Source: Bacteroidaceae bacterium | GTDB lineage: Bacteria > Bacteroidota > Bacteroidia > Bacteroidales > Bacteroidaceae | Assembly (NCBI GenBank): GCA_017428785.1 | Contig: JAFRQD010000030.1 | Span: 1-64,000, forward strand | Reading direction: 5' to 3' | DNA length: 64,000 nt | In this document: in pieces, positions 3,059-48,452 of the stretch | Layout of the letters: every line of letters begins with the position of its first letter | How positions within the stretch are numbered: position 1 is the first letter of the stretch | Notes under the pieces: model-generated | Seen by the model: only the letters and a program-made list of their open reading frames with translations | Database searches by the model: none | Told to the model about the DNA's origin: nothing | Position numbers and translations under genes: made by a program

Positions 3059-4573
3059 ATGGCAATAAGTGATGATTTAGGGGCTCTAATCAGGGAGAAC
3101 TTCGACCATAATCCGACGAAAGAGCAGGAAAAAGCCATCATTATGCTCTCCGACTTCTTGCTTTCAAGAGAGCGTGATTCTGTTTTCCTGCTTAAGGGGT
3201 ATGCCGGCACAGGCAAGACCTCGCTTCTGGCTGCTTTGGTACGCACTATGCAGCAGCTCTGCCAACGGGTCATGTTGCTTGCTCCGACGGGGCGCGCAGC
3301 GAAGGTCTTGTCGTCTTATGCAGGCGCACCGGCGTTTACCATACACAGGAAGATATACAGGCAGAAGTCCATCACGGACATGGATGTCTTTCAGAACGAT
3401 GTGAATCTTCGGCAGGACACGCTGTTCATTGTGGACGAGGCGTCGATGATAGCGAACGATGCCCACGACAGCACAGTCTTCGGAACGGGCCGCCTGCTCG
3501 ACGACCTGATGCACTATGTCTATTCCTGCGACGGGTGCCGGCTCGTGCTTGTGGGCGATACGGCCCAGCTTCCGCCGGTCGGAGAGGAAGAGAGTCCGGC
3601 CCTGAGCCGCACGATGCTCGAGGGGTATGGAATGGAGGTGACGGAGCTCTGTCTGACGCAAGTGGTGCGGCAGCTCGAGGAGTCGGGCATCCTCTGGAAC
3701 GCCACGATGCTCCGCAGCCTCATACAGAACGGCGACATGTTCGAGTTCCCAAAACTCAGGGGCAAGAGCTTCCCCGACATCAAAGCACTTCCGGGCGACG
3801 AGCTCATCGAGGCGCTCGAGCAGAGTTACCGCGAGTTCGGAACCGACGGGACGATAGTCGTGACCCGAAGCAACAAGCGTGCCAATATATATAATAATGG
3901 TATAAGGGCCCGCATCCTCGACCATGAAGAGGAGCTCTCCAGCGGCGACCTGATTATGGTGGCGAAGAACAACTACTATTGGACAGAAGCAGCCCAGTCC
4001 CCAACCCACCTCCAGACCCCCTCTAACTCCCCCTTAAAGGGGGAGGACTCAACTTCGCAAGTCTCCCCTTTAAGGGGAGATTTAGAGGGGTCTTCTTTCA
4101 TCGCCAATGGCGACACCGCGGTGGTCCGACGGCTTCGGAACGAACGGTCGTTCTACGGCTTCCGCTTCATCGACGCTACCATCGAGTTCCCCGACTACGA
4201 CAACAAGGAGATGGAGGTCACCGTCCTGCTCGACACGCTTCAGAGCGAAGCGCCTGCCCTCACCCGTCAGCAGCAGGAAGCACTCTTCCAGGGTGTCTGG
4301 GAAGACTATCCCGAACTGACAAACCGACGCGACCGAATGAAGAAACTGCGCCAGGACCCCTACTACAATGCCCTGCAAATCAAGTATGCCTATGCCGTCA
4401 CCTGTCACAAGGCTCAGGGCGGACAATGGGAGCACGTCTATATCGACCAGGGATACATCACCGAGGAGATGCTCACGCCCGACTATTTCCGATGGCTCTA
4501 CACCGCCATCACCCGCGCTACCCGGCAAGTCTATCTCGTCAACTGGCCCGACTCGGCACTCTCCGATGCCTGA
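3059..4573 (+). CDS. RecD-like ATP-dependent DNA helicase with palindrome insertion
   Basis: 504 residues, a superfamily 1B helicase of the RecD/UvrD-C type common in Bacteroidales. Visible motifs: Walker A GYAGTGKTS (about residues 48-56), motif II VDEASM (about 129-134), motif III VLVGDTAQLPPVG, and the C-terminal YAVTCHKAQGGQWEHV and YTAITRA. It unwinds DNA 5' to 3' in repair or recombination. Residues about 309-346 (TEAAQ... to ...DLEGSS) are the translation of a composite palindrome at 4014-4093 lying between NNYYW and FIANGD, which are normally close together. The frame is intact and the insert is outside the motifs, so the enzyme may be functional. Confidence 0.88.
   Translation: MAISDDLGALIRENFDHNPTKEQEKAIIMLSDFLLSRERDSVFLLKGYAGTGKTSLLAALVRTMQQLCQRVMLLAPTGRAAKVLSSYAGAPAFTIHRKIYRQKSITDMDVFQNDVNLRQDTLFIVDEASMIANDAHDSTVFGTGRLLDDLMHYVYSCDGCRLVLVGDTAQLPPVGEEESPALSRTMLEGYGMEVTELCLTQVVRQLEESGILWNATMLRSLIQNGDMFEFPKLRGKSFPDIKALPGDELIEALEQSYREFGTDGTIVVTRSNKRANIYNNGIRARILDHEEELSSGDLIMVAKNNYYWTEAAQSPTHLQTPSNSPLKGEDSTSQVSPLRGDLEGSSFIANGDTAVVRRLRNERSFYGFRFIDATIEFPDYDNKEMEVTVLLDTLQSEAPALTRQQQEALFQGVWEDYPELTNRRDRMKKLRQDPYYNALQIKYAYAVTCHKAQGGQWEHVYIDQGYITEEMLTPDYFRWLYTAITRATRQVYLVNWPDSALSDA
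4014..4093. repeat. Composite G/C-run palindrome inside the recD-like gene
   Basis: An inverted repeat of two arms, each itself self-complementary (CCCCCTTAAAGGGGG and CTCCCCTTTAAGGGGAG), separated by about 10 bases. The outer ends (AGACCCC...GGGGTCT) also pair. It is translated in frame as about 27 residues rich in Pro, Ser and Gly. It belongs to the same family as the elements at 5353-5446, 47983-48091 and 58737-58806. Confidence 0.9.
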
Positions 4574-4613
4574 CCAGACAGGCCTCGTTGCAAATCATCG
4601 CACGTTAAGTTCA

Positions 4614-4735
4614 TTGTTGCATCATGATGCAGCAATTGATTTATCATGATGCAGCAATTGAATCATCATGACCAATCAATGAACGCCGCACGCGGAAATG
4701 AGTAATTTGTCCTGCGGAGGCGAGCGTCGCGACAT
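4614..4735. repeat. 22-bp dyad array A (mixed CATCATGATG and CCGC-GCGG units)
   Basis: Three consecutive 22-bp units at 4614-4635, 4636-4657 and 4658-4679, all starting TTG and ending CAA, the first two around CATGATGCAG and the third around ATCATGAC. They are followed in the same 22-bp register by a GC-rich unit at 4680-4701 (core CCGCACGCGG) and degenerate sequence. The array fills most of the 326-bp gap between the recD-like gene and rfbD. Confidence 0.9.
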
Positions 4736-4864
4736 GAGGAAACAGGAAACGCCTTGTGTCCGCCGATTTCACCCGTCAAGCCGTAATCGCTCTCCTTTTC
4801 TCTCTTTTCACGCATTTTATGTAAAAAAAACTGCGCATTTAGGAGTATCTTTACATTTTTTTAC

Positions 4865-4872
4865 TATCTTTG
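4865..4872 (+). promoter_or_regulatory. -7 box for the rfbDCB operon
   Basis: TATCTTTG, 28 nt upstream of the rfbD start; a TTTA rather than TTTG lies near the -33 position. Confidence 0.65.
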
Positions 4873-4899
4873 TGCACGGAATATAGTATAAAAGGGGTA

Positions 4900-5880
4900 A
4901 TGACCATACTCGTCACAGGAGCAAACGGCCAGTTGGGCAACGAAATGCGCATCGTTGCAAAAGGCTCGGCCGACAAGTACATCTTCACGGATGTCACTGA
5001 GCAAGAGGGCGTGGAGACCACGTTTCTCGACATCACCGACCTCGAGGCCGTCCGAGCCATCGTCAAGGAGAACGGGGTGCGAGCCATCGTGAACTGTGCG
5101 GCGTGGACAAACGTCGATGCAGCCGAGGCTCCCGAGAACCGCGCTCTCGTCGAGAAACTCAATGCCACGGCCCCCGAGAACCTGGCCCGTGCGATGAAGG
5201 AAGTGGGCGGTTGGCTCGTGCAGATATCCACCGACTATGTATTCGGAAAGGAGCCCTACAACACGCCTTGCCGCCCCGACCAGCAGGGCACGCCGACCGG
5301 CGTCTATGGCGAAACGAAGAAAGAAGGAGAGGAGCGAATCAAGAAGGTATTCAGCCCCTTCCCCGTTCCCCCTTTGGGGGAGTGCTATCGAGGAACTGAA
5401 GGTGGGCAGCTTGGACACTCCCCCAAAGGGGGAGAAGGAGGGGGCTTCATCATCATCCGCACGGCCTGGCTCTACAGCGAATATGGCAAGAACTTCTGCA
5501 AGACGATGCTCAACCTCACGCAGACCAAGCCGCAGCTCAACGTTGTCTTCGACCAGTGCGGCACTCCGACGTACGCCCTCGACCTCGCAAAAGCAATACA
5601 AGTCATCCTCCTGAAGCCCGTGCAAGGCATCTACCACTTCTCCAACGAAGGCGTCTGCTCGTGGTACGACTTCACGCAGATGATTGCCCGCATCGCCGGA
5701 CACAAGGATTGCGACATCCGCCCCTGCTACTCCTCGGAATACCCAAGCCCCGTGAAGCGCCCCGCCTACTCCGTGCTCGACAAACGCAGCATCCGCGAGA
5801 CCTTCGGCATAGAGGTGCCGTATTGGGTCGACTCACTGGAAAAATGTATCGCCAACATTAAAAAGAACAGCTCGTTATAA
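4900..5880 (+). CDS. rfbD: dTDP-4-dehydrorhamnose reductase with palindrome insertion
   Basis: 326 residues from the ATG at 4900 (MTILVTGANGQLGNE), preceded by AAAGGGG; typical RfbD proteins are about 285-295 residues. It is an NAD(P)H-dependent short-chain reductase: Rossmann motif GANGQLG, the STDYVF segment and the YxxxK pair in VYGETKKEGE. It makes dTDP-L-rhamnose, the last step of the pathway. Residues about 150-182 are the translation of the composite palindrome at 5353-5446, lying between the RIKKV helix and the FIIIRTAWLYS strand, so the extra length is explained by the insertion and the frame is kept. First gene of the rfbD-rfbC-rfbB operon. Confidence 0.92.
   Translation: MTILVTGANGQLGNEMRIVAKGSADKYIFTDVTEQEGVETTFLDITDLEAVRAIVKENGVRAIVNCAAWTNVDAAEAPENRALVEKLNATAPENLARAMKEVGGWLVQISTDYVFGKEPYNTPCRPDQQGTPTGVYGETKKEGEERIKKVFSPFPVPPLGECYRGTEGGQLGHSPKGGEGGGFIIIRTAWLYSEYGKNFCKTMLNLTQTKPQLNVVFDQCGTPTYALDLAKAIQVILLKPVQGIYHFSNEGVCSWYDFTQMIARIAGHKDCDIRPCYSSEYPSPVKRPAYSVLDKRSIRETFGIEVPYWVDSLEKCIANIKKNSSL
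5353..5446. repeat. Composite G/C-run palindrome inside rfbD
   Basis: Two arms of about 32 bp (5353-5384 and 5416-5446) pair almost completely. Each arm contains the short palindrome CCCCCTTTGGGGG or CCCCCAAAGGGGG, and the arms are separated by about 31 bp. Translated in frame within rfbD. Confidence 0.9.
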
Positions 5881-5919
5881 CGATACCACGTCATAACGTC
5901 ATAACGAAAAAGACAAACC

Positions 5920-6480
5920 ATGCAAGTAATCAAGACCGCCATCGATGGCGTACTCATCATAGAACCACGCATCTTCAAGGATGCACGCGGGTACTTCTTC
6001 GAATCATTCTCGCAGAGAGAGTTCGAGGAGAAAGTCGGCCCCATCCGCTTCGTGCAGGACAACGAAAGCATGTCCTCCTACGGCGTGATGCGCGGCCTGC
6101 ATTTCCAGCGCCCGCCCCACACGCAAAGCAAGCTCGTCCGCTGCGTCAGAGGCGCCGTCCTCGATGTGGCCGTCGATATACGCAAAGGCTCACCCACCTA
6201 TGGGCAGCACGTCGCCGTCGAACTCACAGAAGAGAACCACAGGCAGTTCTTCGTGCCGAAAGGCTTCGCCCACGGTTTTGCCGTACTGAGCGAAACGGCT
6301 GTCTTCCAGTACAAGTGCGACGAGTTCTACCATCCCGAAGCCGACGACGGCATCAGCATCACAGACCAAAGCCTCGGCATCGACTGGCGAATACCCACCG
6401 AGAAGGCAATCCTCAGCGAAAAGGACACAAAGCATGTTAACCTCAAGGACTTCGAAAGTCCGTTTACATACCAAGTATAA
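5920..6480 (+). CDS. rfbC: dTDP-4-dehydrorhamnose 3,5-epimerase
   Basis: 186 residues, the normal RfbC length. The cupin signature is clear: EPRIFKDARGYFFESF, the catalytic-His block GVMRGLHFQRPPHTQSKLVRC, and FVPKGFAHGFAVLSE. It epimerises C3 and C5 of the 4-keto-6-deoxy sugar between the RfbB and RfbD steps. It lies 39 bp after rfbD and 2 bp before rfbB, so it sits mid-operon. Confidence 0.95.
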   Translation: MQVIKTAIDGVLIIEPRIFKDARGYFFESFSQREFEEKVGPIRFVQDNESMSSYGVMRGLHFQRPPHTQSKLVRCVRGAVLDVAVDIRKGSPTYGQHVAVELTEENHRQFFVPKGFAHGFAVLSETAVFQYKCDEFYHPEADDGISITDQSLGIDWRIPTEKAILSEKDTKHVNLKDFESPFTYQV

Positions 6481-6482
6481 CT

Positions 6483-7619
6483 ATGAAACTTAACATTGTC
6501 ATCACAGGCGGCGCCGGTTTCATCGGCAGTCACGTCGTTCGACTCTTCGTCAACAAGTACCCTGAGTATAAGATCATCAACCTCGACAAGTTGACCTACG
6601 CAGGCAACCTCGCGAACCTCAAGGACATCGAGGACAAGCCTAACTATAAGTTCGTGAAGATGGACATCTGCGACTTCGACGCATTCTACAAGCTGATGCA
6701 GGACGAGAAGATAGACGGCATCATCCACCTCGCAGCAGAGAGCCACGTGGACCGTAGCATAAAGGACCCCTTCACATTTGCTCGCACGAATGTGATGGGC
6801 ACGCTCTCCCTCCTGCAGGCTGCCAAGCTCTATTGGGAAAGCCTGCCCGAGAGGTACGAAGGCAAACGCTTCTACCACATCTCGACCGACGAGGTGTACG
6901 GGGCGCTCGAGATGACGAACCCCGAAGGCATCAAGCCGCCTTTCACCACGACTGCCAGCAGCTCCGAGCATCACTTGGCGTACGGCAAGGACTTCTTCTA
7001 CGAGACAACGAAGTACAATCCCCACAGCCCGTACTCTGCTTCGAAAGCCTCCAGCGACCACTTCGTCCGCGCTTTCCACGACACTTACGGCATGCCGACC
7101 ATCGTGACGAACTGCTCCAACAACTACGGCCCCTATCAGTTCCCCGAGAAACTGATACCGCTCTTCATCAACAACATACGCCATCGCAAGCCCCTCCCCG
7201 TCTATGGTAAGGGCGAGAACGTGCGCGACTGGCTCTATGTCGAGGACCACGCCCGGGCCATCGACACCATCTTCCACAAAGGCACCATCGCCGAGACCTA
7301 CAACATCGGCGGCTTCAACGAGTGGAAGAACATCGACATCATCAAGACGGTCATCAACACAGTTGACCGCCTGCTTGGCCGTCCCGAAGGCGCCGACATG
7401 GACCTCATCACCTACGTCACAGACCGCCTCGGCCACGACGCCCGCTATGCCATCGACTCCACCAAGCTGCAGAAGGAGCTGGGATGGGAGCCTTCGCTCC
7501 AGTTCGAAGAGGGCATCGAAAAGACCGTCAAGTGGTACCTCGAGAACGAACAGTGGATGGACAACATCACAAGCGGCGACTACGAGAAGTATTACGACGA
7601 CATGTACAAGAACAGATAA
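6483..7619 (+). CDS. rfbB: dTDP-glucose 4,6-dehydratase
   Basis: 378 residues. NAD-binding GGAGFIGSHVVR at the N-terminus, TYAGNLANL, the HISTDEVYGAL block and the YxxxK pair in PYSASKASSDH identify RfbB of the extended SDR family. It converts dTDP-glucose to the 4-keto-6-deoxy intermediate. Third gene of the rhamnose operon. The thymidylyltransferase gene rfbA, usually adjacent, is not in this cluster and must lie elsewhere. Confidence 0.95.
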   Translation: MKLNIVITGGAGFIGSHVVRLFVNKYPEYKIINLDKLTYAGNLANLKDIEDKPNYKFVKMDICDFDAFYKLMQDEKIDGIIHLAAESHVDRSIKDPFTFARTNVMGTLSLLQAAKLYWESLPERYEGKRFYHISTDEVYGALEMTNPEGIKPPFTTTASSSEHHLAYGKDFFYETTKYNPHSPYSASKASSDHFVRAFHDTYGMPTIVTNCSNNYGPYQFPEKLIPLFINNIRHRKPLPVYGKGENVRDWLYVEDHARAIDTIFHKGTIAETYNIGGFNEWKNIDIIKTVINTVDRLLGRPEGADMDLITYVTDRLGHDARYAIDSTKLQKELGWEPSLQFEEGIEKTVKWYLENEQWMDNITSGDYEKYYDDMYKNR

Positions 7620-7667
7620 GCAGAACAAACAGAACAAACATAATAAACCTAAATAAACAAAAGAACT

Positions 7668-8822
7668 ATGATGACTCGTATTCAAACAAGACTGAAAGCA
7701 CTGCTCACAGCAGCATTGCTCGCGACCGCTTTCTCCGCACATGCTCAGGAAGCTCCCTCAAACTATGTCTCTTATCCTTATGCCTTCATCGGCTTGCAAG
7801 GCGGGGTACAGGAAACTGCAACTCATTACTACAACAATTGGAAACTTTTCACGCCGACCGCAAGTGTCAGCTTTGGTGCGCACTTCACGCCAGTGTTCGG
7901 CGCCCGCCTGCATGTCAACGGCATCTGGAACAAGAGCGGCATCGACATGGATTACCGTAACCTTGACGAGACCTACAAGTACAAGTACATCACAACTGAC
8001 CTCGATGCAATGATCAACGTGGTCAACCTCTTCTCCAAGAACCAATACCGTCCCTGGAATGTTTACCTCATCGGAGGTATCGGCCTCAACTACGCTTGGG
8101 ACACGGAATATGCATCATCCCTGAAGCAATACATTTCGGAGAAGAAGGCTGAGAACCGCTTCAGCCACAACTTCCGCCTTGGTGGCATGTTGGATGTCAA
8201 GGTGGCACGCAACTGGAGCGTCAACATCGAAGTGGATGCCAACTGCCTCAACGACCGCTTCAACTGCAAGACCAGCCACAACGACGACTGGCAGTTCACT
8301 GCACAGCTGGGCGTGGCATACAAGTTCGGCCTTCCCCACAAGGCTAAGGGCGACCCGAGGTCGAACATTATCGTTGCCCCCGAAACTATCGGCGCAGACA
8401 CAGAGACGGCATCTGCCAACACGGGCGTATCAATCGACAAACCCGAACCGGCACCCACTACCGCTCCGACTGTTGTGACACCGGCTCCCGAAGTAAAGAA
8501 GGAAGAGATAACCCGCAACATCTTCTTCGAGATTCGTAAGACCGAGGTTACTGCGAAGGACCAGACGATAATTGCCGAGGTGGCAAAATGGCTCAAGGAT
8601 CATCCCGATGCTAAGGTCACCGTTACCGGATATGCCGACAAGGGAACGGGCAACGCCGCCAACAACGAGCGCTTTGCCAAGCAGCGTGCCGAGTCTGTGA
8701 CCAAGGCGCTGATAAAGAAGGGCGTGGAGAAGAGCCGCATCACCACCGACTCGAAGGGCGACCGTATGCAGCCATTCGCTGAGAATGACAAGAACCGCGT
8801 CACCATCATCGTCGGCAAATAA
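7668..8822 (+). CDS. OmpA-family outer-membrane protein (paralogue 1)
   Basis: 384 residues. Signal peptide MMTRIQTRLKALLTAALLATAFSAHA, then an N-terminal beta-barrel of about 200 residues with alternating aromatic strands (YKYKYITTDLDAMINVVNLF, WNVYLIGGIGLNYAWD), a Pro/Thr-rich linker (about 250-275) and a C-terminal OmpA peptidoglycan-binding domain (NIFFEIRKTEV ... VTGYADKGTGNA ... ERFAKQRAESV). It should tether the outer membrane to peptidoglycan. It is closely similar to the gene at 15407-16627; the two flank the CHASE2/CHAT genes. It lies 48 bp after rfbB and may be co-transcribed. Confidence 0.9.
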   Translation: MMTRIQTRLKALLTAALLATAFSAHAQEAPSNYVSYPYAFIGLQGGVQETATHYYNNWKLFTPTASVSFGAHFTPVFGARLHVNGIWNKSGIDMDYRNLDETYKYKYITTDLDAMINVVNLFSKNQYRPWNVYLIGGIGLNYAWDTEYASSLKQYISEKKAENRFSHNFRLGGMLDVKVARNWSVNIEVDANCLNDRFNCKTSHNDDWQFTAQLGVAYKFGLPHKAKGDPRSNIIVAPETIGADTETASANTGVSIDKPEPAPTTAPTVVTPAPEVKKEEITRNIFFEIRKTEVTAKDQTIIAEVAKWLKDHPDAKVTVTGYADKGTGNAANNERFAKQRAESVTKALIKKGVEKSRITTDSKGDRMQPFAENDKNRVTIIVGK

Positions 8823-8837
8823 TAACAAACCACTTTC

Positions 8838-8877
8838 GGGGTGTCGGAAAGAGGTGTCCCCTCTTTTCGGCATCCGC
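8838..8877. other. Hairpin between ompA-like gene and CHASE2 gene
   Basis: Arms of about 17 nt (CGGGGTGTCGGAAAGAGG with CCTCTTTTCGGCATCCG, some G-U pairs) around a 3-4 nt loop. There is no U-tract after it on the plus strand, so it may be a weak terminator, a processing site or an mRNA-stability structure. Confidence 0.5.
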
Positions 8878-8894
8878 ACTTCCTACGACAGACT

Positions 8895-10067: not shown

Positions 10068-10072
10068 GTGAA

Positions 10073-10160
10073 AAACGCCGCGTGCGGCGATGCCAATCCC
10101 CGCGTGCGGCGATGGCAATTTCCGCGTGCGGCGATGGCAATCCCCGCAGCCGGCGTTTGG
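10073..10160. repeat. 22-bp dyad array B (CCGC-GCGG units)
   Basis: Four contiguous 22-bp units at 10073, 10095, 10117 and 10139, with core CCGCGTGCGG (last unit CCGCAGCCGG), beginning 5 bp after the CHASE2 stop. A short G/C-run palindrome (CCCCCCTCCAGAGGGG) follows at about 10162-10178. Confidence 0.92.
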
Positions 10161-10243
10161 ACCCCCCTCCAGAGGGGCATTATCAAGGCCCCCGCAAGGC
10201 CGATGGAAACAACATAAAATAACACACTTTTAAACCATAAGCA

Positions 10244-10672: not shown

Positions 10673-10675
10673 GCC

Positions 10676-15007: not shown

Positions 15008-15117
15008 AAATACCGCACGAAAAATCGTCAAATTTCGCGTGGAGCGTTGGGCAACTTCGCGTGGGGAAATTGCAAACGTCGCGTGTGGCGTTGGCCAACA
15101 TCGCAGGCGGCGTTTGG
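15008..15117. repeat. 22-bp dyad array J (degenerate GC-rich units)
   Basis: Five contiguous 22-bp units starting at 15008, 15030, 15052, 15074 and 15096, with cores such as TTCGCGTGGAGCG, TCGCGTGTGGCG and TCGCAGGCGGCG separated by AA/TTGGC linkers. It is a diverged member of the CCGC-GCGG family in a 672-bp gap that also holds the 14787 terminator and the 15363 promoter. Confidence 0.8.
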
Positions 15118-15362
15118 CTTTTCCCCATGCCTCGCCGACGAATTCCCCGTTTTTCGCCCTGCATTTTGTAAAGTTTTATTCACGCTTTTACCAGTACATT
15201 TTACTCATTTCCGCATAAAAATTGTAGGGATGCGACTCGAATGCATGCGTTATACAGTACAAAACGTCTCATTCCCTCGAAAGCCGCACAGGAAAAAACA
15301 CCTCGCTGTAAAGAAAAATACAATTTTGCGCCTCTATCGGCATGCAATTCGGATTTTTTCCT

Positions 15363-19569: not shown

Positions 19570-19914
19570 ATGGCATACAATCCAAATAAAGAGCTCAAGA
19601 AATACTACGGCATTGCCGAAGTGGCAGAACAATTCAATGTGGCAGAGTCGTTGTTGCGCTTTTGGGAGAAGGAGTTCCCCAACATCAAGCCCCAGAAGAG
19701 CGGCCGGGGTGTGCGCATGTACACAAAGGAAGACATCGAGGAGGTGCGCCTCGTCTATAATCTGGTCAAGATTCGCGGCATGAAACTTGCAGCTGCGAAG
19801 CAAGTCTTGAGCAAGAATCGCAAGGCAGCCAGCGACACATCCGAAATCATCGAGCGCCTGCAATCCATCAAGGCTGAATTACAGGAGATTAGCCGCGAGC
19901 TGAAGGAGTTGTAA
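19570..19914 (+). CDS. MerR-family transcriptional regulator
   Basis: 114 residues. The N-terminal winged helix-turn-helix reads KKYYGIAEVAEQFNVAESLLRFWEKEFPNIKP with the MerR-type wing GRGVRMYTKEDIEEV, followed by a short dimerisation helix (AKQVLSKNRK, then SIKAELQEISRELKEL). There are no cysteines for metal binding and no effector domain, so it belongs to the short MerR proteins common in Bacteroidota, of unknown target. It is divergent from alaS and its stop codon overlaps the first base of a 22-bp repeat array. Confidence 0.88.
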   Translation: MAYNPNKELKKYYGIAEVAEQFNVAESLLRFWEKEFPNIKPQKSGRGVRMYTKEDIEEVRLVYNLVKIRGMKLAAAKQVLSKNRKAASDTSEIIERLQSIKAELQEISRELKEL

Positions 19915-20000
19915 ACGCCGGCTGCGGCGATTGCCAACGCCGCACGCGGAAATGCCCATCGCCGCACGCGGGGATTGCCAACGCCGCACGCGGCGTTTTT
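19914..20000. repeat. 22-bp dyad array C (CCGC-GCGG units)
   Basis: Four units starting at 19914, 19936, 19958 and 19980, cores CCGGCTGCGG and CCGCACGCGG. The array begins at the last base of the merR stop codon and ends with a T-run (GGCGTTTTT), so the last unit could also act as a terminator. Confidence 0.92.
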
Positions 20001-20049
20001 CAGCCCCCCTGCAAGGCCTTCTGAACACACCTCCCTATCGTCACAAAAA

Positions 20050-27765: not shown

Positions 27766-27799
27766 CTCACCCTTTGGGGCGGGGAGATTGGGAGGGGAC
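27766..27799. repeat. Composite G/C-run palindrome at the porin stop
   Basis: On the minus strand, immediately after the porin stop, CCCCTCCCAATCTCCCC is followed by GCCCCAAAGGGTGAGGCGG. It is a gene-end member of the family that is found inside three reading frames elsewhere in the window. Confidence 0.65.
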
Positions 27800-28915
27800 T
27801 CAGTTGAACCTCACTTGCAGCTGGCACTGGATGCCATGATTGGCGCCGTGGATGAACTGGTTGTCGGCCGTATAGGCGCTCTTATATACATACTGCACCT
27901 GCAGGCGGCACTTCTTGTAGAACCAGTACTGCAGGCCTGCAATTGCTTTGTGCTGGTCCATGCCGAGGTCTGTATTGAAGTTGAAGAAGTCGTAAGAGCC
28001 CACGAACTCCACTTTGGGGGTGCCGAGGGGTACGGCTCCCGTCACGTATGCGCCCCAACTATGGGCGTCGCCATCCCATCCGTTCAGGTATTCGCCGTGA
28101 ACCTTGAAAGCCTTCGACTTGTAGTCTGCGCCTATTGTGCAGCGGTGGCGCTTGTAGTCCTGACCAATCGCGATAGTGGGATTATATAAAGATGTATTGA
28201 TGGCATGTCCTCTGCCGAGTTGTCCGGAGGCGACGACACTCAGACCCAAGACGGGCCGATACACAAAGCGTGTGATGATGTCCTTGAAGTTGTTGCCATC
28301 CTTCTTGTTGATGCCCTGACCGTTCAGGACGTCCAGTTCGTAGTGGTACTTGCCGTCGTTTGTCTCGCCATAGAGTGCAAGGCCGAGGTCACGGCCGTAC
28401 TGGACGCCCAGCAAAGGGTCGCTGCCGCAACCCGTAAGGAAGGTGACGGCCTCGCTATACACGTCGATGGCCTCCATTGCGGTGGGGGAAAGGGGGTTCT
28501 CGAGCGAGAGACCGTTCTTGAACTGGCCGAAGCGAACGGTCAGCGCCTTGTTCCTGGTGAGGCGATAGTCTGTGTAGTACTCCTGAACGACGCTCGAGAA
28601 GTCGTGCATGAAGAGGAACGACCAGCGGTCGGTTATCTTGGCTTCTGCCCAGAAGAGGACGCGCTTGAGGTCGAAAGTGTTTTTGTTCTGGCCGCCCTGA
28701 TGGGAATAGGTGTATCCCGCCTGGGCGTAGCCGTGGAGGACGATGCGGTTCGAAAGGTCTTGGAACCATTTCTTGTCGGTGATGCCTTTCAATTCAAACC
28801 GGCCATGCTTGTCCGTGTTGAAGTAGATGGAGTCGGATTGCCCCATCGCTGCTGTGCTGCTGAAGATAGCCAGCGACACAGCCAGCGTCGTCTTGATGAA
28901 AAATGTTTTTCTCAT
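27800..28915 (-). CDS. OprO/OprP-type outer-membrane porin
   Basis: 371 residues from the ATG at 28915 with signal peptide MRKTFFIKTTLAVSLAIFSSTAAMGQ. The mature part is a porin barrel (FELKGITDKKWFQDLSNRIVLHGYAQAGY, VLFWAEAKITDRWSFLFMHDFSS, LTRNKALTVRFGQFKNGLSLENP) ending in QCQLQVRFN. Such proteins pass anions or small solutes across the outer membrane. It is 82 bp upstream of the symporter, making a two-membrane uptake route. An in-frame ATG at 29005 gives no signal peptide. Confidence 0.8.
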   Translation of the reverse strand: MRKTFFIKTTLAVSLAIFSSTAAMGQSDSIYFNTDKHGRFELKGITDKKWFQDLSNRIVLHGYAQAGYTYSHQGGQNKNTFDLKRVLFWAEAKITDRWSFLFMHDFSSVVQEYYTDYRLTRNKALTVRFGQFKNGLSLENPLSPTAMEAIDVYSEAVTFLTGCGSDPLLGVQYGRDLGLALYGETNDGKYHYELDVLNGQGINKKDGNNFKDIITRFVYRPVLGLSVVASGQLGRGHAINTSLYNPTIAIGQDYKRHRCTIGADYKSKAFKVHGEYLNGWDGDAHSWGAYVTGAVPLGTPKVEFVGSYDFFNFNTDLGMDQHKAIAGLQYWFYKKCRLQVQYVYKSAYTADNQFIHGANHGIQCQLQVRFN

Positions 28916-29019
28916 TGTTTTGAAAGTTTTATTATTACTATGGTTATACCTGATAATTTCCTTTGTGTGTTGAGCCCTCTCGGTAACTGCCTGATACAGA
29001 GCCACGTGCAGTCAGCCAA

Positions 29020-29107
29020 AACGCCGCCTGCGGGGATTGCCAACGCCGCACGCGGGGATGGGCATCGCCGCACGCGGGGATTGCAATCGCCGCACGCGGC
29101 GTTTGCG
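29020..29107. repeat. 22-bp dyad array D (CCGC-GCGG units)
   Basis: Four contiguous 22-bp units start at 29020, 29042, 29064 and 29086, cores CCGCCTGCGG and CCGCACGCGG, alternating AAC/ATC leaders. A short CCCCCCTGCTGGGGGG palindrome follows at 29108-29124. It sits between the clcA and porin genes, both leftward. Confidence 0.93.
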
Positions 29108-29197
29108 CCCCCCTGCTGGGGGGATTTCTGCTTCCTGCAAAATTATGGTCCGAGCGCTCATTCTGATGCTGGTTTTATGATGTTCTGCGATGTGTTT

Positions 29198-31004: not shown

Positions 31005-31058
31005 TCTCCCTAAAGGGGGTTCTTCGGCTGTCGCCTCAGGCGCAGGCGGAGAGGGGGT
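31005..31058. repeat. Composite G/C-run palindrome between clcA and tsaC
   Basis: CTCCCTAAAGGGGG, then TCGCCTCAGGCG and GGCGGAGAGGGGG. It is a degenerate member of the gene-end palindrome family and starts right at the tsaC stop. Confidence 0.55.
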
Positions 31059-35194: not shown

Positions 35195-35220
35195 TCCCCC
35201 TTAAGGGGGCTAGGGGGTCC
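35195..35220. repeat. Composite G/C-run palindrome at the lysE-type stop
   Basis: CCCCCTTAAGGGGG followed by CTAGGGGG, ending at the exporter's stop codon (35221). Gene-end member of the palindrome family. Confidence 0.65.
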
Positions 35221-36026: not shown

Positions 36027-36034
36027 ATTTTTCC

Positions 36035-37067: not shown

Positions 37068-37085
37068 AAAACAGACTGCTACACT

Positions 37086-37270
37086 GCTGAATAACGGCAG
37101 TCTGAATCTTAAGCCTGGAAGGCTATATTACTGAGTAGCGTCAGCCCGCATCCCAAGCCTGGAAGGCTATATTACTGAGTAGCATCAGTCTGAATCCCAA
37201 GCCTGGAAGGCTATATTACTGAGTAGCGTCAGCCCGCATCCCAAGCCTGGAAGGCTATACTTTGAGTAAC
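37086..37270. repeat. 44-bp tandem repeats (2 x 22 bp)
   Basis: Units start at 37111, 37155, 37199 and 37243, exactly 44 bp apart. Each has an AGCCTGGAAGGCT dyad and a CTGAGTAGC-TCAG dyad, so a unit looks like two 22-bp half-units. A degenerate half copy precedes it from about 37086, right after the glucokinase stop. Confidence 0.9.
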
Positions 37271-37436
37271 CGATGGGCGAAGCCCTCGGGCAGGACGAGG
37301 AGACCACCTCACCACTCCTGCCTGGAAGGCAGTACCTCGCACCTCATAGTATTGCCCTCCAGGCAGCAGGGAGCAATCCATCCGCTGATACCGAGGGCTT
37401 CGCCCCCGGTTACTCATAGTAAAGCCCTCCAGGCTT
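37243..37436. repeat. Large nested inverted repeat
   Basis: About 46-bp outer arms (37243-37289 and 37391-37436) pair nearly completely, containing GAGTAACCG and GGGCGAAGCCCTCGG. Inside, CTGCCTGGAAGGCAGTAC pairs with GTATTGCCCTCCAGGCAG. The structure ends in TTTTTT (about 37435-37441), so it can act as an extended terminator or be a small non-autonomous element. Confidence 0.85.
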
Positions 37437-37479: not shown

Positions 37480-37522
37480 CCCCACCCCTGCCCCTCCCCT
37501 TAAATGGGAGGGGAGTTGGGGA
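37480..37522. repeat. Composite G/C-run palindrome
   Basis: CCCCACCCCTGCCCCTCCCC, TTAAAT, then GGGAGGGGAGTTGGGGA. Free-standing intergenic member of the family, in the 963-bp gap between glucokinase and the GH43-like gene. Confidence 0.75.
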
Positions 37523-37658
37523 TGCTGGGCGCTCTGCCTCCGGGGCGATGACTTGGGCTTTTTCTTTTGGAAAAACTCTTTACAATATCCGTTGTTTCCG
37601 GAGGCTGAAAAAGTCATGCTCTGTGGGGCGTCTGCCGAGACAGGCAGCGGAGATTGCC

Positions 37659-37746
37659 GACGCCGGCTGCGGCGATGGCAAACGCCGCATGCGGAAATGA
37701 CCAACGCCGCACGCGGGGATTGCCATCGCCGCAGGCGGCGTTTTCC
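37659..37746. repeat. 22-bp dyad array E (CCGC-GCGG units)
   Basis: Four contiguous 22-bp units at 37659, 37681, 37703 and 37725, cores CCGGCTGCGG, CCGCATGCGG, CCGCACGCGG and CCGCAGGCGG. Apart from this array, the repeats above and the promoter below, I see nothing else in 37068-38030. Confidence 0.92.
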
Positions 37747-37995
37747 AGTTTTGCAAGCGGCTGTGGTTAAGGAGGTTGCAAAAGCCTCGAAAGGCCCCTT
37801 CCAAAGTCTTCCGTCCGGAACGGGCCAGAAACAGTCTCCCAAGATGGCACCACAAACAGTCGCATCCAAAATCTTTACATTTTCAGCGGAATATTTCATG
37901 TCGAAACACAGGGGAACGGAAATCGGAAAACTTAAAAAATCTCATTTCTCAATCTTTAATTTTCAATTCTTAGCCCTTAATTCCCATTTTTTTCG

Positions 37996-39014: not shown

Positions 39015-39070
39015 AAGCCCCCTTCCCGATTATTTTTCCTCAAAAAGAGGAAAGATAACGGAAAAAACAC

Positions 39071-39078: not shown

Positions 39079-39122
39079 CAGTTGCTCTGCATTGAAAAAC
39101 CAAACAATTAACCTTTCAAACC

Positions 39123-39827: not shown

Positions 39828-39911
39828 CAGCCCACTCCCGACTTCCCGGGACGGAAGCAGGAATCACAATACAGACAATACTTAATCATCAACAATAACT
39901 AACAAAAAGAC

Positions 39912-39958
39912 CCATCCCCCTGCATGGTCTTCCCCCTCGGGGGACAAGAGAGGGGCCA
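39912..39958. repeat. Composite G/C-run palindrome upstream of araA
   Basis: CCCATCCCCCTGCATGG and TTCCCCCTCGGGGGA followed by AGAGGGGCC, directly before the araA ribosome-binding region. It could fold over the araA start and tune its expression. Confidence 0.6.
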
Positions 39959-39962
39959 CATT

Positions 39963-41495: not shown

Positions 41496-41498
41496 CAC

Positions 41499-43085: not shown

Positions 43086-43154
43086 GAGGCCAGCACGCCC
43101 CCTTCCCTACCGCCGCGTGCCGGCTTCCCGGTCACGGCACGGATAATGTTAGAA

Positions 43155-43238
43155 ACGCAACCTGCGTCTTTCGGTACGCAGGTTGCGTTTCCACATTTAC
43201 AGCCTGCGTTTCTTGAGACGCAAGCTGCGTAGCAAGAA
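43155..43238. repeat. 21-bp dyad array G (ACGCAAGCTGCGT type)
   Basis: Four units exactly 21 bp apart: 13-bp cores ending at 43167, 43188, 43209 and 43230 (ACGCAACCTGCGT, ACGCAGGTTGCGT, a shortened third, ACGCAAGCTGCGT) plus 8-bp spacers; degenerate units continue to about 43280. It lies in the 365-bp gap between araB and the DUF2723 gene. Confidence 0.92.
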
Positions 43239-43383
43239 TCCAGTGCGCCGGAAGTGCTGATTCCGGCAAAGGAAACTGCATTTGCCCCGTTCCGCATGTC
43301 CTTTTTCCGGTCTCTCTCTCCCCTCCCCGAGCCGCAAGAAAGTACTTCCGCTCGACAATAAAAAGAAAAACTTTGGTTTTCCT

Positions 43384-43414
43384 TTTGTATTGTGCTCGCT
43401 TATTCGTACCTTTG
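43384..43414 (+). promoter_or_regulatory. Promoter of the DUF2723 gene
   Basis: TTTG at 43384-43387, 19-nt spacer, TACCTTTG at 43407-43414; full Bacteroidetes consensus. Confidence 0.75.
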
Positions 43415-43450
43415 CACCCAATTATACATATTATACCTCTTAAATAAGGC

Positions 43451-46400
43451 ATGAAACATTTCAGACTTGTGGACAACCTGATGGGTTGGCTTACTTTCGC
43501 CATCGCGGCTTTCGTGTATTGCAGCACGGTAGAGCCTACGGCAAGTTTTTGGGACTGCCCCGAGTTCATCACGACGGGCTATAAACTGGAGGTCGGGCAC
43601 CCGCCTGGGGCACCCTTCTTCATGCTCACGGCCAATCTCTTCACGCAATTCGTGAGCGACCCCACAAAGGTTGCGCTTATGGTCAACATGATGAGCGCAC
43701 TCTTCAGCGCCGCCTGCATCATGTTCCTCTTCTGGAGCATCAGCCATCTGGCAAGAAAGCTGATTGGCGAGAACGGCAGGCTGCAGAACCTTGCCCAGCT
43801 CATTACGGTGGAGGCAAGTGCCCTGACCGGCGCCTTGGTCTATACGTTCAGCGATACATTCTGGTTCAGCGCCGTAGAAGGCGAGGTGTATGCCTACAGC
43901 AGCCTCTTCACGGCTGTCGTCTTCTGGTTGATGCTCAAGTGGGAAGACCATGCCGACGAGCCGGGCAGCGACCGTTGGCTTATCTTCATCGCCTACCTGA
44001 CCGGCCTTAGCATCGGCGTGCACTTGCTGAACCTGCTCTGCCTGCCTGCCCTCGTGCTCATCTTCTACTACAGGAAGGTCAAGGACGCCACGTTTAAAGG
44101 GGCGCTCTTGTGGCTGGCGGGAAGCGGATTGCTCATCGCAGCCGTGCTCTACGGCATCGTGCCGGGCATCGTAAAGGTAGGCGGCTGGTTCGAGCTCCTG
44201 TTTGTCAACACGCTCAGCATGCCCTTCAACACGGGCGTCATCGTATATATCGCCCTGCTGGTCGGCATCGTGCTTTGGAGCATATATGAAACCATCAAGC
44301 AGAAAAGCCGCATCCGCATGACGCTCTCCTACCTGCTGAGCGTAGGCATGCTGGGCATTCCCTTCTACGGCTACGGCTGGAAGAGCATCGTCTGTGGCGT
44401 AGTGGTGCTGGCTCTGCTCTATGTCGCACTCGAGTGGAAACGCGACGGGAAGAACGTCATTTCCGCCCGCCTCATGAACACCTCGCTGCTCTGCATGCTC
44501 ATGATAATGATAGGCTACAGCTCGTATGCAGTCATCGTCATCCGCAGCTCCGCCAACACACCGATGGACCAGAACTCTCCGGAGGACATCTTCACTTTGG
44601 GAACATACCTGAGCCGCGAACAGTACGGCGACCGTCCGCTTTTCTACGGGCCTGCCTACACGAGCCAAGTGCTGCTCAAGCCCGACGGCAACTACTGCGT
44701 GCCCGTCAGCGAACAGGGCGCTCCCGTCTATCAGCGCAAGGAGAAGCAGACGCCCGACGAGCCCGACCGCTACGAGATACAGCGCTACAAGACAGACTAC
44801 ATATATCAGCAGAACATGTTCTTCCCCCGCATGTATAGCGAGGCACATGCCAGCGCCTATGAGAGCTGGATGGGCGGCGTGAAGGGAAACGTCAAGAGCT
44901 ATGAGCGCTGCGGCGAGATGGTGCAGATCAAGACGCCGACACAGCTCGAGAACCTGCGATTCTTCCTAAGCTATCAGGTGAACTTCATGTACTGGCGCTA
45001 CTTCATGTGGAACTTTGCCGGCCGGCAGAACGACCTGCAGGGCAACGGAGAATGGGAGCACGGCAACTGGATAACAGGCATCCCCTTCCTCGACAACATG
45101 CGCCTCGGCGACCAAAGCAAACTGCCCAGCGAACTCCGCGAGAACAAGGGACACAACGTCTTCTACTGCCTGCCCCTGCTGCTCGGCCTCATCGGCTTGC
45201 TGTGGCAACTCTTCAAGAACGACGACAAGACACGCAACGGCGAGGGTGAGAAACAATTCGGCATCGTGTTCTTCCTCTTCTTCATGACCGGCCTCGCCAT
45301 CGTGCTGTACCTCAACCAGACGCCGATGCAGCCGCGTGAACGCGACTATGCCTACGCCGGTTCGTTCTACGCCTTCGCCATTTGGGTGGGGCTCGGAGTG
45401 GCTGGCATCGCCTACTACCTCCAGAAGCTGTTCCGCAGCGAGATGGCAGCGGCGCTGCTCAGCTGCATCTGCATCCTCGTGCCCATCCAGATGGCAGGAC
45501 AGACGTGGGACGACCACGACCGCAGTGGCAGATATACCTGCCGCGACTTCGGCAGAAACTATCTCGAGTCGCTGTCAAAAGGAGACTTCCCCATCATCTA
45601 TACCAACGGCGACAACGACACCTTCCCTCTCTGGTATGCACAAGAGACGGAAGGCTTCCGCACGGATGCCCGCGTCTGCAACCTCTCTTACCTGCAGACC
45701 GACTGGTATATCGACCAGATGAAGCGTCCGGCATACGACTCGCCAGCCGTTCCCATCCATTGGAGCAGGCTGCAATATGTGGCTGGCACAAGAGAGGGCA
45801 TCACCGTCCGACCAGGCACTTTGGAACGCCTTGTGGAGTCCTATAAAGACGACCCCGAGACGCTTCGCAACATCCTGGGCGACAACCCCTTCGAGCTCAA
45901 GAGCATCATCGACAACTGGGTGCTGAGCGACAATCCCGAGCTGCGTTTCATCCCGACCGACAGCATCGTGGTGACCATAGATAAGGAGGCGGTACGCCGA
46001 AGCGGCATGATGATAGCAGGCGACAGCATACCCGACAGGATGGTCATCCGCCTGAAGGGCAAGCGCGCCGTCTATAAGAGTGAGATGATGATGTATGAGA
46101 TGATTGACAGGTGCAACTGGGAGCGTCCCATATACATGGCCATGACGGTAGGTCCCGAGAACAAGGGCACCGTGCAGGACTTCTTCGTGCAGGAAGGTCT
46201 CGCATATCGCATAACGCCCTTCAACACAGCCAAGAGCGGCAAGAACATCGATACGGAGAGGATGTACGAGAACCTGATGACACGCTTTACCTTTGGCGGC
46301 ATCGACAAGCCCGGCATCTATCTCGACGAAACCGTCATGCGAATGTGCAGCACTCACCGTCGCATCTTTGCGCAGCTGGCTACGCGGCTCATTCAGGAAG

Positions 46401-46828
46401 GCAAGCGCGAAAAGGCCGCCAAGGTGCTGGAAAAGGTAGAGCAGGCCATTCCGCCTACTACCGTCCCACACAGCTTCAACAGCGGCTCGCTGGAATTGGC
46501 TCGTGCCTGGAACACTTTGGACAAGAAGGAGGAAGCCATCAGCATCGCCTATCCCGTGGCTCTTCAGGAGAAGGAGTACCTCGAATGGTACATCAGCCTG
46601 CCCGACAAGATGCTTCTCATGAACGAGAAGGAGTGCTTCTACCGTCTTTACCAGATGCGTTCGGCAGTGGGCATCCTGGAGAGTGCCGGCAGCGACAAGA
46701 CTCCGGAGCTTTCCAAGCAGCTCGACCTCTGCCTCCAGCTCCTCCAGAAACGCCTGTATGGCAGTGTAGGCTTGGATGCCGAGGATGAATCTGTCGAATA
46801 CGAAGCTGACGAAGAAGACACGCTGTAA
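43451..46828 (+). CDS. DUF2723 multi-pass membrane protein, probable glycosyltransferase
   Basis: 1125 residues. The N-terminal block LTFAIAAFVYCSTVEPTASFWDCPEFITTGYKLEVGHPPGAPFF is the signature of DUF2723 (TMEM260-like GT-C) proteins, followed by about 12 membrane helices to residue 700 and a large soluble C-terminal part (residues about 740-1125) with TPR-like helices (LATRLIQEGKREKAAKVLEKVEQ). The DCPEF and GHPPG motifs are placed where GT-C enzymes have catalytic acids. It probably transfers a sugar from a polyprenyl carrier to exported proteins (inference from eukaryotic TMEM260). The ATG at 43451 follows a consensus promoter. Confidence 0.85.
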   Translation: MKHFRLVDNLMGWLTFAIAAFVYCSTVEPTASFWDCPEFITTGYKLEVGHPPGAPFFMLTANLFTQFVSDPTKVALMVNMMSALFSAACIMFLFWSISHLARKLIGENGRLQNLAQLITVEASALTGALVYTFSDTFWFSAVEGEVYAYSSLFTAVVFWLMLKWEDHADEPGSDRWLIFIAYLTGLSIGVHLLNLLCLPALVLIFYYRKVKDATFKGALLWLAGSGLLIAAVLYGIVPGIVKVGGWFELLFVNTLSMPFNTGVIVYIALLVGIVLWSIYETIKQKSRIRMTLSYLLSVGMLGIPFYGYGWKSIVCGVVVLALLYVALEWKRDGKNVISARLMNTSLLCMLMIMIGYSSYAVIVIRSSANTPMDQNSPEDIFTLGTYLSREQYGDRPLFYGPAYTSQVLLKPDGNYCVPVSEQGAPVYQRKEKQTPDEPDRYEIQRYKTDYIYQQNMFFPRMYSEAHASAYESWMGGVKGNVKSYERCGEMVQIKTPTQLENLRFFLSYQVNFMYWRYFMWNFAGRQNDLQGNGEWEHGNWITGIPFLDNMRLGDQSKLPSELRENKGHNVFYCLPLLLGLIGLLWQLFKNDDKTRNGEGEKQFGIVFFLFFMTGLAIVLYLNQTPMQPRERDYAYAGSFYAFAIWVGLGVAGIAYYLQKLFRSEMAAALLSCICILVPIQMAGQTWDDHDRSGRYTCRDFGRNYLESLSKGDFPIIYTNGDNDTFPLWYAQETEGFRTDARVCNLSYLQTDWYIDQMKRPAYDSPAVPIHWSRLQYVAGTREGITVRPGTLERLVESYKDDPETLRNILGDNPFELKSIIDNWVLSDNPELRFIPTDSIVVTIDKEAVRRSGMMIAGDSIPDRMVIRLKGKRAVYKSEMMMYEMIDRCNWERPIYMAMTVGPENKGTVQDFFVQEGLAYRITPFNTAKSGKNIDTERMYENLMTRFTFGGIDKPGIYLDETVMRMCSTHRRIFAQLATRLIQEGKREKAAKVLEKVEQAIPPTTVPHSFNSGSLELARAWNTLDKKEEAISIAYPVALQEKEYLEWYISLPDKMLLMNEKECFYRLYQMRSAVGILESAGSDKTPELSKQLDLCLQLLQKRLYGSVGLDAEDESVEYEADEEDTL

Positions 46829-46858
46829 GGGCGTACACCGCTAATCGCACATAGAATC

Positions 46859-47473
46859 GTGTTCATCGAGCAGCCGCCCCGAATCTTCCGATGGTTCTAT
46901 CCCCACGCTTTGTGGAGGATAAACCCCGACAGAAAGGCTGTCTATCTGACCTTCGACGACGGCCCTATCCCCGAGGCGACGCCGTTCATCCTCGACACGC
47001 TGGACCGCTTCGGCGCAAAGGCGACGTTCTTCATGGTGGGCGACAACGCAGAGAAGTACCCGCATCTGCTCGAAGAGGTACGCCTGAGGGGACACGGCAT
47101 CGGCAACCACACCTACAACCACATCTCGGGAGCCCGTCACCGTCCGTGGACTTACCTGGCCAACATCAAGCGGGCCAACGACATCCTCCACACCAACCTC
47201 TTCCGACCGCCGCACGGATGGATAGGGATGGTGCAGTACAGAGTCCTGCGTTATGTGGGCATAAAAGTGGTGATGTGGGATGTGGTGACGCGCGACTACA
47301 GCCGTCTGCTTACGGCAGAAGACGTGGTGAACAACGTGAAGCGCTACACCCGAAACGGCAGCATCATCACGCTCCACGACTCGCTCAAGAGCATCGACAA
47401 GCTCAAGCACGCACTTCCCGAGATACTTGCATGGCTGAAGCAAGAAGGATATGAGTTCGGCATCATTGAATAG
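46859..47473 (+). CDS. Polysaccharide deacetylase family protein (CE4)
   Basis: 204 residues from a GTG start at 46859. NodB-homology motifs: TFDDGP (about 29-34), HTYNH in GHGIGNHTYNHIS (zinc His pair), RPPHGW, WDVVTRDY and ITLHDS. It removes acetyl groups from a sugar polymer or acts on peptidoglycan. No clear signal peptide, so it may act in the cytoplasm or be exported otherwise. It follows the DUF2723 gene by 30 bp and overlaps the QueG-like gene by 23 bp. Confidence 0.88.
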   Translation: MFIEQPPRIFRWFYPHALWRINPDRKAVYLTFDDGPIPEATPFILDTLDRFGAKATFFMVGDNAEKYPHLLEEVRLRGHGIGNHTYNHISGARHRPWTYLANIKRANDILHTNLFRPPHGWIGMVQYRVLRYVGIKVVMWDVVTRDYSRLLTAEDVVNNVKRYTRNGSIITLHDSLKSIDKLKHALPEILAWLKQEGYEFGIIE

Positions 47474-48452
47474 CCAAGACATCAAAGCCCAGGCCCAGCG
47501 CTTGGGCTTTGTTGCATGCGGGCTGGCGAAGGCAGAGCCCGTCGACGAGAGCTTTGCCGCACGCTTCCGCAGATGGCTGGAGCTCGACTACTGTGGTGAG
47601 ATGGACTACATGCGCCGCAACGTCGAGATGCGCCTGAAGCCCGACCTCCTCGTGCCCGGCGTGAAGACCATCGTCAGCCTCGCCATGAACTTCATGCCTT
47701 CGGAGCAGCAGCCCGGCATCAGCCTTTATGCACAAGGCCGCGACTACCATGATGTCCTGCGGGAGCGGATGCAAGAACTCATGACGGCCTGCGGGCTCGA
47801 AGGCCGCTGCTTTGTCGATACGGCTCCCGTGCTGGAGCGCTACTGGGCCTGGCGGAGCGGCATCGGCACCATCACCTCGGGCGGCTTCATCAGCGTGCCC
47901 GGCTACGGCCCGACGGTGTTCCTCGGAGAACTCTTCCTCACCGCAGAGGCCGACCAGTACGGTGAGCCACGACCGCCACAGCCCGGACCCACCCCCAACC
48001 CCTCCCTTGTAGGGAGGGGAGTAGTTACTTCTCAAGTAGAAAAACAACATGCCCCCCTCCCTACAAGGGAGGGGAATGGGGGTGGGTCCGGCACTTTCTT
48101 CTGCCCCGCCCTCACACCCGAAGGACTCGATGCCCGCCTTTGCATCAGCTACCAGACCATCGAGCATCGCGGCCCTCTGCCCGAGGAGATACAGCTCAGA
48201 CGCACCTTCTACGGCTGCGACCGCTGCCTCAGAGCCACACCGCAGTTCGCCGAGTCGCATCCCACCGCTGAGCCCGCCTTCCAACCCTCCGAGGCACTCC
48301 TGCAGATGACGCCCGACGACTGGCAAAACCTCACCGAGGAGCAGTACCGCCAGCTCTTCAAGGGTTCCGCCGTCAAACGCGCCAAGTACGACGGCCTCAA
48401 GCGCAACATCGAGCGATGGCTCGAGCAGAAAAAAACCTCTCCCTCAAGATAA
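47451..48452 (+). CDS. queG: QueG-like epoxyqueuosine reductase with disrupted iron-sulfur ligands
   Basis: 333 residues, ATG overlapping the previous gene. The N-terminal half is a normal QueG cobalamin-binding domain (AQAQRLGFVACGLAKAE, GEMDYMRRNVEMRL, PVLERYWAWRSGIGTITSGGFISVPGYGPTVFLGEL) and the C-terminal part keeps LDARLCISYQTIEHRG and GSAVKRAKYDGLKRNI. Residues about 178-214 are the translated composite palindrome (47983-48091), exactly where the first CxxCxxxCP cluster motif belongs; only Cys218 and Cys231 remain there. The second motif reads CDRCLRATP (Cys256, Cys259), with the third Cys missing. QueG makes queuosine from epoxyqueuosine in tRNA; this copy probably cannot hold both [4Fe-4S] clusters and may be inactive. 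Confidence 0.8.
   Translation: MSSASLNSQDIKAQAQRLGFVACGLAKAEPVDESFAARFRRWLELDYCGEMDYMRRNVEMRLKPDLLVPGVKTIVSLAMNFMPSEQQPGISLYAQGRDYHDVLRERMQELMTACGLEGRCFVDTAPVLERYWAWRSGIGTITSGGFISVPGYGPTVFLGELFLTAEADQYGEPRPPQPGPTPNPSLVGRGVVTSQVEKQHAPLPTREGNGGGSGTFFCPALTPEGLDARLCISYQTIEHRGPLPEEIQLRRTFYGCDRCLRATPQFAESHPTAEPAFQPSEALLQMTPDDWQNLTEEQYRQLFKGSAVKRAKYDGLKRNIERWLEQKKTSPSR
47983..48091. repeat. Composite G/C-run palindrome inside queG
   Basis: Outer arms of about 37 bp (47983-48019 and 48054-48091) pair almost perfectly, starting CCGGACCCACCCCCA. Each arm ends in its own palindrome (CCTCCCTTGTAGGGAGGGG and its counterpart). The best preserved copy in the window, translated in frame. Confidence 0.93.

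Follow-up and report, generated by a model that had tools for sequence, protein, structure and literature searches.

Double-hairpin elements of fungal mitochondria are organellar mobile units made of two hairpins, some of which lie inside genes. Among bacteria, Rickettsia palindromic elements (RPEs) are ~150 bp long and fall into ten families, with 44 insertions in R. conorii, nearly half of them within genes, according to excerpts of PMC10969869; the same excerpts describe miniature inverted-repeat transposable elements (MITEs) as non-autonomous units of 50-500 bp that have inverted ends in common with a coding element and outnumber this parent. Repetitive extragenic palindromes (REPs) and their composite forms, REPINs, consist of hairpin units that are often paired in inverted orientation, some REPs being located inside genes (excerpts of PMC3733652). 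Here, we describe palindromic elements in a 64,000-nucleotide stretch of a Bacteroidaceae bacterium (positions 1 to 64,000 of contig JAFRQD010000030.1, assembly GCA_017428785.1; hereafter "the window"), three of which are carried in frame by the genes recD2, rfbD and queG. These palindromes are probably MITE-like, non-autonomous miniatures of a mobile element encoding a DUF559 protein, retained where the host protein tolerates them.

Like RPEs, the elements comprise several short palindromic families found in frame in unrelated genes; they differ from RPEs by their occurrence in another phylum, their composite C/G-run arms and their coding parent with a nuclease, and the comparison is one of behaviour, not of sequence homology. 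An earlier note on this DNA, made from the sequence alone, had read them as RPE-like, which captures the in-frame insertions and their density and leaves out the multiplicity of families and the likely DUF559 parent. As in MITEs, inverted ends are shared with a coding (DUF559) element, only weakly so for the right arm of the family named delta below, the autonomy of that parent being putative; unlike in MITEs, the candidate enzyme is a nuclease rather than an insertion sequence (IS) transposase. The elements differ from the REP/REPIN system in that no REP-associated tyrosine transposase (RAYT) accompanied their arms at the loci examined. By behaviour, they are a MITE-and-parent pair resembling RPEs and homing nucleases; by membership, they show neither the target duplication of ordinary MITEs nor the RAYT of REPINs nor the splicing domain of inteins.

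Composite palindromes in frame in recD2, rfbD and queG

The three in-gene elements are the following, all identified from sequence, translation and orthologue loops.

recD2 (gene 3059-4573, + strand), in-frame delta element with two arms at 4014..4093
rfbD (gene 4900-5880, + strand), in-frame alpha element with two arms at 5353..5446
queG (gene 47451-48452, + strand), in-frame gamma element with two arms at 47983..48091

In agreement with the earlier note, translation proceeds through all three inserts without a stop, yielding products of 504 (recD2), 326 (rfbD) and 333 (queG) amino acids (aa), and both arms of each element are themselves palindromes. One half of each element consists of an outer C-run tail and an inner hairpin, the other half being its inverted counterpart. 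Folded as single-stranded DNA, the recD2, rfbD and queG elements each outperformed 200 of 200 shuffles (z -5.4, -4.5 and -10.7, respectively). Rather than the single palindrome family envisaged in the note, at least four sequence families share this one architecture; we named them alpha (rfbD), beta (mostly single arms), gamma (queG) and delta (recD2). Pfam searches with seven insert-bearing hosts returned a domain spanning the insert, or domains flanking it, in five cases, namely recD2, rfbD (in which the RmlD domain falls in two stretches), a phosphomethylpyrimidine kinase, an aminotransferase and a DEAD helicase; queG and a PPDK-type protein were matched on the pre-insert side only.

The density of copies noted earlier was borne out, both in the window and across the rest of the genome (G000; 2.98 Mb in 71 contigs, 84% complete). 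A hairpin detector found 11 arm units (9 distinct hairpins) in the 64 kb compared to at most one in any of 20 dinucleotide-shuffled versions, and the patterns CTCCCCN5GGGGAG and CCCCTCCCN{2,7}GGGAGGGG occurred at 44 and 25 sites of G000, with no site for either reversed-pattern control. Single arms (38) outnumbered two-arm elements (17) in the window and the scanned stretches of G000 taken together; of the two-arm elements, 13 are read through by an open frame that extends for 60 codons or more to either side, two of these frames (L032 and L047) being probably antisense. Outside G000, alpha arms were present in no fewer than 114 stretches of contigs from other genomes, which is a lower bound on their spread; the 80 of these stretches that were listed all belong to metagenome-assembled genomes named Bacteroidaceae, Prevotellaceae or Bacteroidales, many bearing ruminant-gut sample names. 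Alpha elements mostly begin with GCCCC after an A and end with GGGGC before a T (53 and 54 of 64 elements), and their lengths, genic and intergenic copies pooled, are divisible by three in 10 of 64 cases, or in 32 of 64 when the flanking A and T are counted. The delta pattern was found in 59 of 139 genomes.

We searched 61 genomes of the same genus for orthologues (recD2 matched in 61, rfbD in 53 and queG in 37), and the loops were read by eye at 30 loci per gene, 2 recD2, 8 rfbD and 2 queG loci giving no anchor. In close relatives, the recD2 loop measured 48 nucleotides (nt) (L218, L219 and L221) versus 114 in the window, the rfbD loop 33-54 versus 120 nt, and the queG loop 96-99 versus 189 nt. 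Thus, the window palindromes are insertions. Neither outcome that the earlier note named as refuting was seen, copies being plentiful in the genome and the orthologues having either no extra residues or different ones. The orthologue alignment suggested in the note confirmed the insertions and left their borders imprecise; relatives are ~79-83% identical to the window where aligned and the loops themselves align poorly, so that the exact insert ends, and any loss of host residues, are uncertain. Among more distant members of the genus, recD2 loops range from 45 to 114 nt and are mostly of other sequence, and loop length alone is thus no proof of insertion there.

The same loops are filled differently from one species to the next. 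At the 12 closest recD2 loci (L213-L224), eight harbor inverted-repeat inserts of several unrelated sequences, one (L224) has tandem heptamer arrays and three have the 48-nt loop. In rfbD, alpha inserts (L243-L245), a delta insert (L247), tandem heptamer arrays (L246 and L248) and loops of 33-54 nt (L249-L253) were found at the same position, and in queG, a gamma (L273), an alpha (L274) and a delta-like insert (L275), an inverted heptamer array (L276) and loops of 96-99 nt (L277-L282). Syntenic stretches of nine genomes revealed further such sites, including one in a gene read as alaS and another, in a gene read as queA, with different inserts in two species (gene names assigned by eye). The host loops are permissive and have been refilled repeatedly by different families.

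Several side observations concern these loops. By eye, the CGxCxRC iron-sulphur motif near the queG insertion site is missing from QueG of this subclade (the window, L273-L282, L284, L286 and L287) and retained in that of L283, L285 and most of L288-L302. Net insert lengths in the nine genomes appear to cluster near 66, 87 and 110 nt regardless of family, an impression without statistics, and three kinds of rfbD insert all give a 120-nt loop. The heptamer tandem arrays, also present at 1478-1569 of the window and in stretches of G005, G051, G020 and G013 (L303-L308, L321 and L322), are species-specific and often form inverted pairs, e.g. (ATTGACC)n..(GGTCAAT)n; no associated gene was found. 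Finally, in a queE-like gene (L045, 2876-3006), arms of two different families flank, by eye, apparently native host sequence, and arms may thus also insert singly.

A DUF559 gene between matching arms

In the first set of loci examined, alpha arms were 250-3000 nt apart in six cases, four of which enclosed the same 129-aa gene, whose product belongs to Pfam DUF559 (PF04480; E 2e-30); L111, L150 and L181, from the same scan, encode close relatives of this protein. Full-length relatives in which same-family arms surround a DUF559 gene were found for all four families of the window, and of 139 genomes of the genus, 100 contain between 1 and 8 DUF559 matches. The association was scored on best-scoring DUF559 loci by a two-sided test requiring that the gene be flanked on both sides, at no more than 330 nt, by C/G hairpins with a 7-mer in common. 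The test was passed by 54 of the 70 loci of the genus, 20 of 30 loci from across the phylum and 7 of 10 plasmid loci (Cyanobacteriota, Deinococcota and Pseudomonadota), as opposed to none of 600 random same-genus windows and none of 56 off-centre windows. Likewise, inverted repeats that reach 38 bits flanked 23 of the 30 best DUF559 loci of the genus compared to 2 of 134 random windows, both of which were loci from a search for Y1_Tnp genes, and 60 of 84 loci in a wider DUF559 set.

Arms and nuclease vary together. Across 60 loci with clear arms, the more alike the DUF559 proteins, the more alike the arms (Mantel r 0.51, p 1e-4, 9999 permutations, relatedness being ignored), including among locus pairs less than 80% (r 0.43) and less than 70% identical (r 0.30). 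Genomes with DUF559 (n=100) had a median of 26.5 arms versus 3 in those without (n=39), relatedness again being ignored (Mann-Whitney p 4e-9 and Spearman 0.62 over the 139 genomes). Window arms of all four families matched arms of DUF559 loci better than shuffled arms did. The alpha arms of rfbD match DUF559 elements L192, L145 and L109; the left gamma arm of queG matches L354 and the right one L324 and L389; a beta arm of the window (37480..37525) scored 26 and 21 against L344 and L334, the best shuffled score being 12. The left delta arm of recD2 scored 20 against L373 (best of 50 shuffled arms, 12) and the right one matched L373 weakly (12 versus 10). The genome of L373 (G125) has 13 delta-pattern matches, fewer than several other genomes.

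No target duplication was detected at the ends of 60 DUF559 elements (z -0.8 to 1.2) or 64 alpha elements (z -0.3 to 1.5), borders in these tests being uncertain by a few bases. Such a result, together with the presence of unrelated sequences, heptamer arrays included, at the same sites, could be expected if a host process, e.g. template switching at replication forks, created palindromic and tandem inserts that loops then tolerate, with no dedicated element involved. Near-identical arms at dozens per genome and in the many contig stretches described above, and the fixed pairing of arms with DUF559, make this account very doubtful.

High-copy hairpin units in inverted pairs are also reminiscent of REPINs, and G000 has one gene for a Y1 transposase (Y1_Tnp), the enzyme type of RAYTs. 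That gene, the only one of its kind found in G000, is flanked by a different palindrome; alpha to delta arms were found at none of the 30 loci of the Y1_Tnp search (L001 and L070-L098), some of these loci being weak Y1_Tnp matches, and own C/G hairpins stood on both sides at 4 of 21 testable ones. Mobilization by a RAYT is thus highly improbable and, at the Y1_Tnp loci examined, unsupported for alpha to delta arms. The palindrome next to the Y1_Tnp (RAYT-like) gene is REP-like, CCCAGGGC..GCCCTGGG, and occurs at 48872-49061 of the window and at 1301-1350 and 1905-1935 of L001.

A profile built from ten DUF559 proteins matched the structures 3hrl, 'Endonuclease-Like Protein' (E 4e-24), and 3r3p, 'Mobile intron protein' (3r3p_A, E 1.6e-5), as well as PvuRts1I (E 2e-3). 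We take 3r3p to be I-Bth0305I, an EDxHD/Vsr-type homing endonuclease of a kind also found in inteins, from which the present elements differ by the lack of an intron or splicing domain and by their palindromic ends, many ectopic sites and miniatures. A DUF559 gene is placed in the EDxHD homing endonuclease family in the intein section of PMC9403480, and excerpts of PMC12907096 tie a Vsr-like DUF559 protein of Caulobacter to DNA damage responses. Together with the structure-profile matches, these reports support a DNA-cutting enzyme, putatively a Vsr/EDxHD-like nuclease of the PD-(D/E)XK kind. No link between DUF559 and palindromic repeats was found in the open-access papers searched, including the excerpts of PMC10969869, PMC3733652, PMC12907096, PMC9403480 and PMC3943268.

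DUF559 also occurs as an in-frame domain of other proteins. In MiaB (L372), it lies between UPF0004 and TRAM, apparently splitting the radical-SAM domain; it is found close to the end of an NAD epimerase (L337), precedes the guanylate kinase Gmk (L348), follows a phosphoglycerate mutase (L347) and IspG/GcpE (L388), and lies within a Pseudanabaena methylase that is annotated as a single protein (L400), leucyl-tRNA synthetase (LeuRS; L411), methionine synthase MetH (L419) and HsdR (L418). L411, L337 and L372 fail the two-sided test, L337 and L372 nevertheless showing short C/G hairpins. These insertions were rejected as inteins, Pfam at E 0.001 finding a splicing (Hint) domain in none of the nine host proteins. 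As a separate observation, DUF559 recurs inside restriction-modification proteins (HsdR, N6 methylases) of other Bacteroidota and Pseudanabaena (L416, L418, L422, L431, L409, L412, L430 and L400; Pfam was run on L418 and L400).

Further repeats of the window

Outside the three genes, the window harbors the following copies.

58739..58811, gene-end element with two arms, ORF 58350-58760 terminating within it; from orthologous-site comparison, missed by the detector
37480..37525, single beta arm in a gap; detector
35195..35220, single arm, hairpin with G tail; detector
39917..39956, single hairpin with tails; detector
27766..27806, degenerate arm at a gene end; by eye, detector negative
31005..31058, degenerate arm at a gene end; by eye, detector negative
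48668..48721, degenerate arm in a gap; by eye, detector negative

The gene-end and gap copies proposed in the earlier note thus proved uneven: the one at 58737 is a two-arm insert, the same place being without insert in G005, G008, G012, G051 and G067, and those at 35195, 37480 and 39912 are single hairpins, while those at 27766, 31005 and 48655 are degenerate and discernible by eye only. The presence of several copies at gene ends and the strength of the hairpins would suit functional RNA or terminator structures, with in-gene copies as neutral accidents. An Rfam scan of the window matched none of the palindromes and counted a single tRNA; with many copies inside genes and arms tied to a nuclease gene, we find this explanation barely credible.

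The window also contains intergenic GC-rich repeats with a 22-nt period of the ACGCCGCACGCGGGGATTGCCA type (10075-10163, 15032-15120, 19893-20025, 28977-29131 and 37616-37770), similar to repeats in stretches of G067, and a tandem array with a 44-nt period (37078-37297).

A candidate mobile element and its miniatures

We propose that the full-length form, ~400-730 nt between its outer ends, consists of a single DUF559 nuclease gene bounded on either side by a composite palindrome made of a hairpin and a C/G-run tail, the two palindromes being inverted relative to each other. The nuclease would recognize the hairpin-tail ends of its own element and cut or nick DNA, and the element would be copied to a new place during repair without target duplication; miniatures sharing those ends would be mobilized in trans. 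Insertion itself is probably indifferent to genes, selection leaving behind those copies that stay in frame, contain no stop and lie in loops or at the ends of proteins that presumably still work, such that the same permissive loops could be refilled by different families. The open frames are most simply explained by selection rather than by design. The lack of target duplication is a poor fit to the usual duplicating transposase, and we favour a nuclease acting with repair.

The main rival to this proposal is that DUF559 is a passenger: another enzyme, or host replication and repair, would spread the palindromes, and the nuclease would be a homing-type hitchhiker between two of them. The kinship of DUF559-type nucleases with homing endonucleases (the 3r3p match; excerpts of PMC9403480), the excess of single arms over two-arm elements in the G000 stretches (38 to 17) and the queE-like gene with two unrelated arms around host residues all speak for this possibility. 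DUF559 is, on the other side, the sole gene found repeatedly between such arms (four of six spans), and it is accompanied by family-specific arms in several phyla. On balance, we regard a passenger role as unlikely.

A number of further results weigh against DUF559 as the mover, two of which the passenger reading shares. G000 has 71 arm sites by the pattern of the 139-genome count, yet gave no DUF559 match at E 0.001 in its 84% complete assembly, and heptamer-array inserts, which are of another kind and come without DUF559, share the loops of the C/G palindromes. The correlations of arms with nuclease similarity and with nuclease presence would also be expected if the gene merely rode along. 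Miniatures with the element's own arms numbered 0, 0 and 1 in 60, 20 and 20 kb of three DUF559 genomes, a tally that is at most slightly adverse. The two-sided test was failed by 16 of 70 genus, 10 of 30 phylum-wide and 3 of 10 plasmid loci, LeuRS inserts L411 and L414 among them; the 38-bit criterion was passed by 7 of 30 phylum-wide loci; none of six DUF559 relatives on viral contigs had arms; and all of these loci were best-scoring matches rather than a random draw. Lastly, no movement of the elements was observed.

If DUF559 is the mover, the elements constitute a new class. Tentatively, then, this class may comprise mobile elements with a Vsr/EDxHD-type nuclease gene and composite palindromic ends, inserted at many unrelated sites without known transposase or target duplication, accompanied by tens to hundreds of miniatures per genome, and present in housekeeping proteins of several phyla either as additional residues or as an entire nuclease domain. 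Were this the case, much of the unexplained load of C-run/G-run palindromes in bacterial genomes would be debris of such elements, and a large unnamed class of bacterial palindromic repeats would gain a parent element and a candidate enzyme, reducing what moves short palindromes to a single-gene question. DUF559, a 'protein of unknown function' in Pfam, would gain a role in mobility, and in-frame DNA insertion would provide a route by which proteins, tRNA synthetases included, acquire loops or whole domains.

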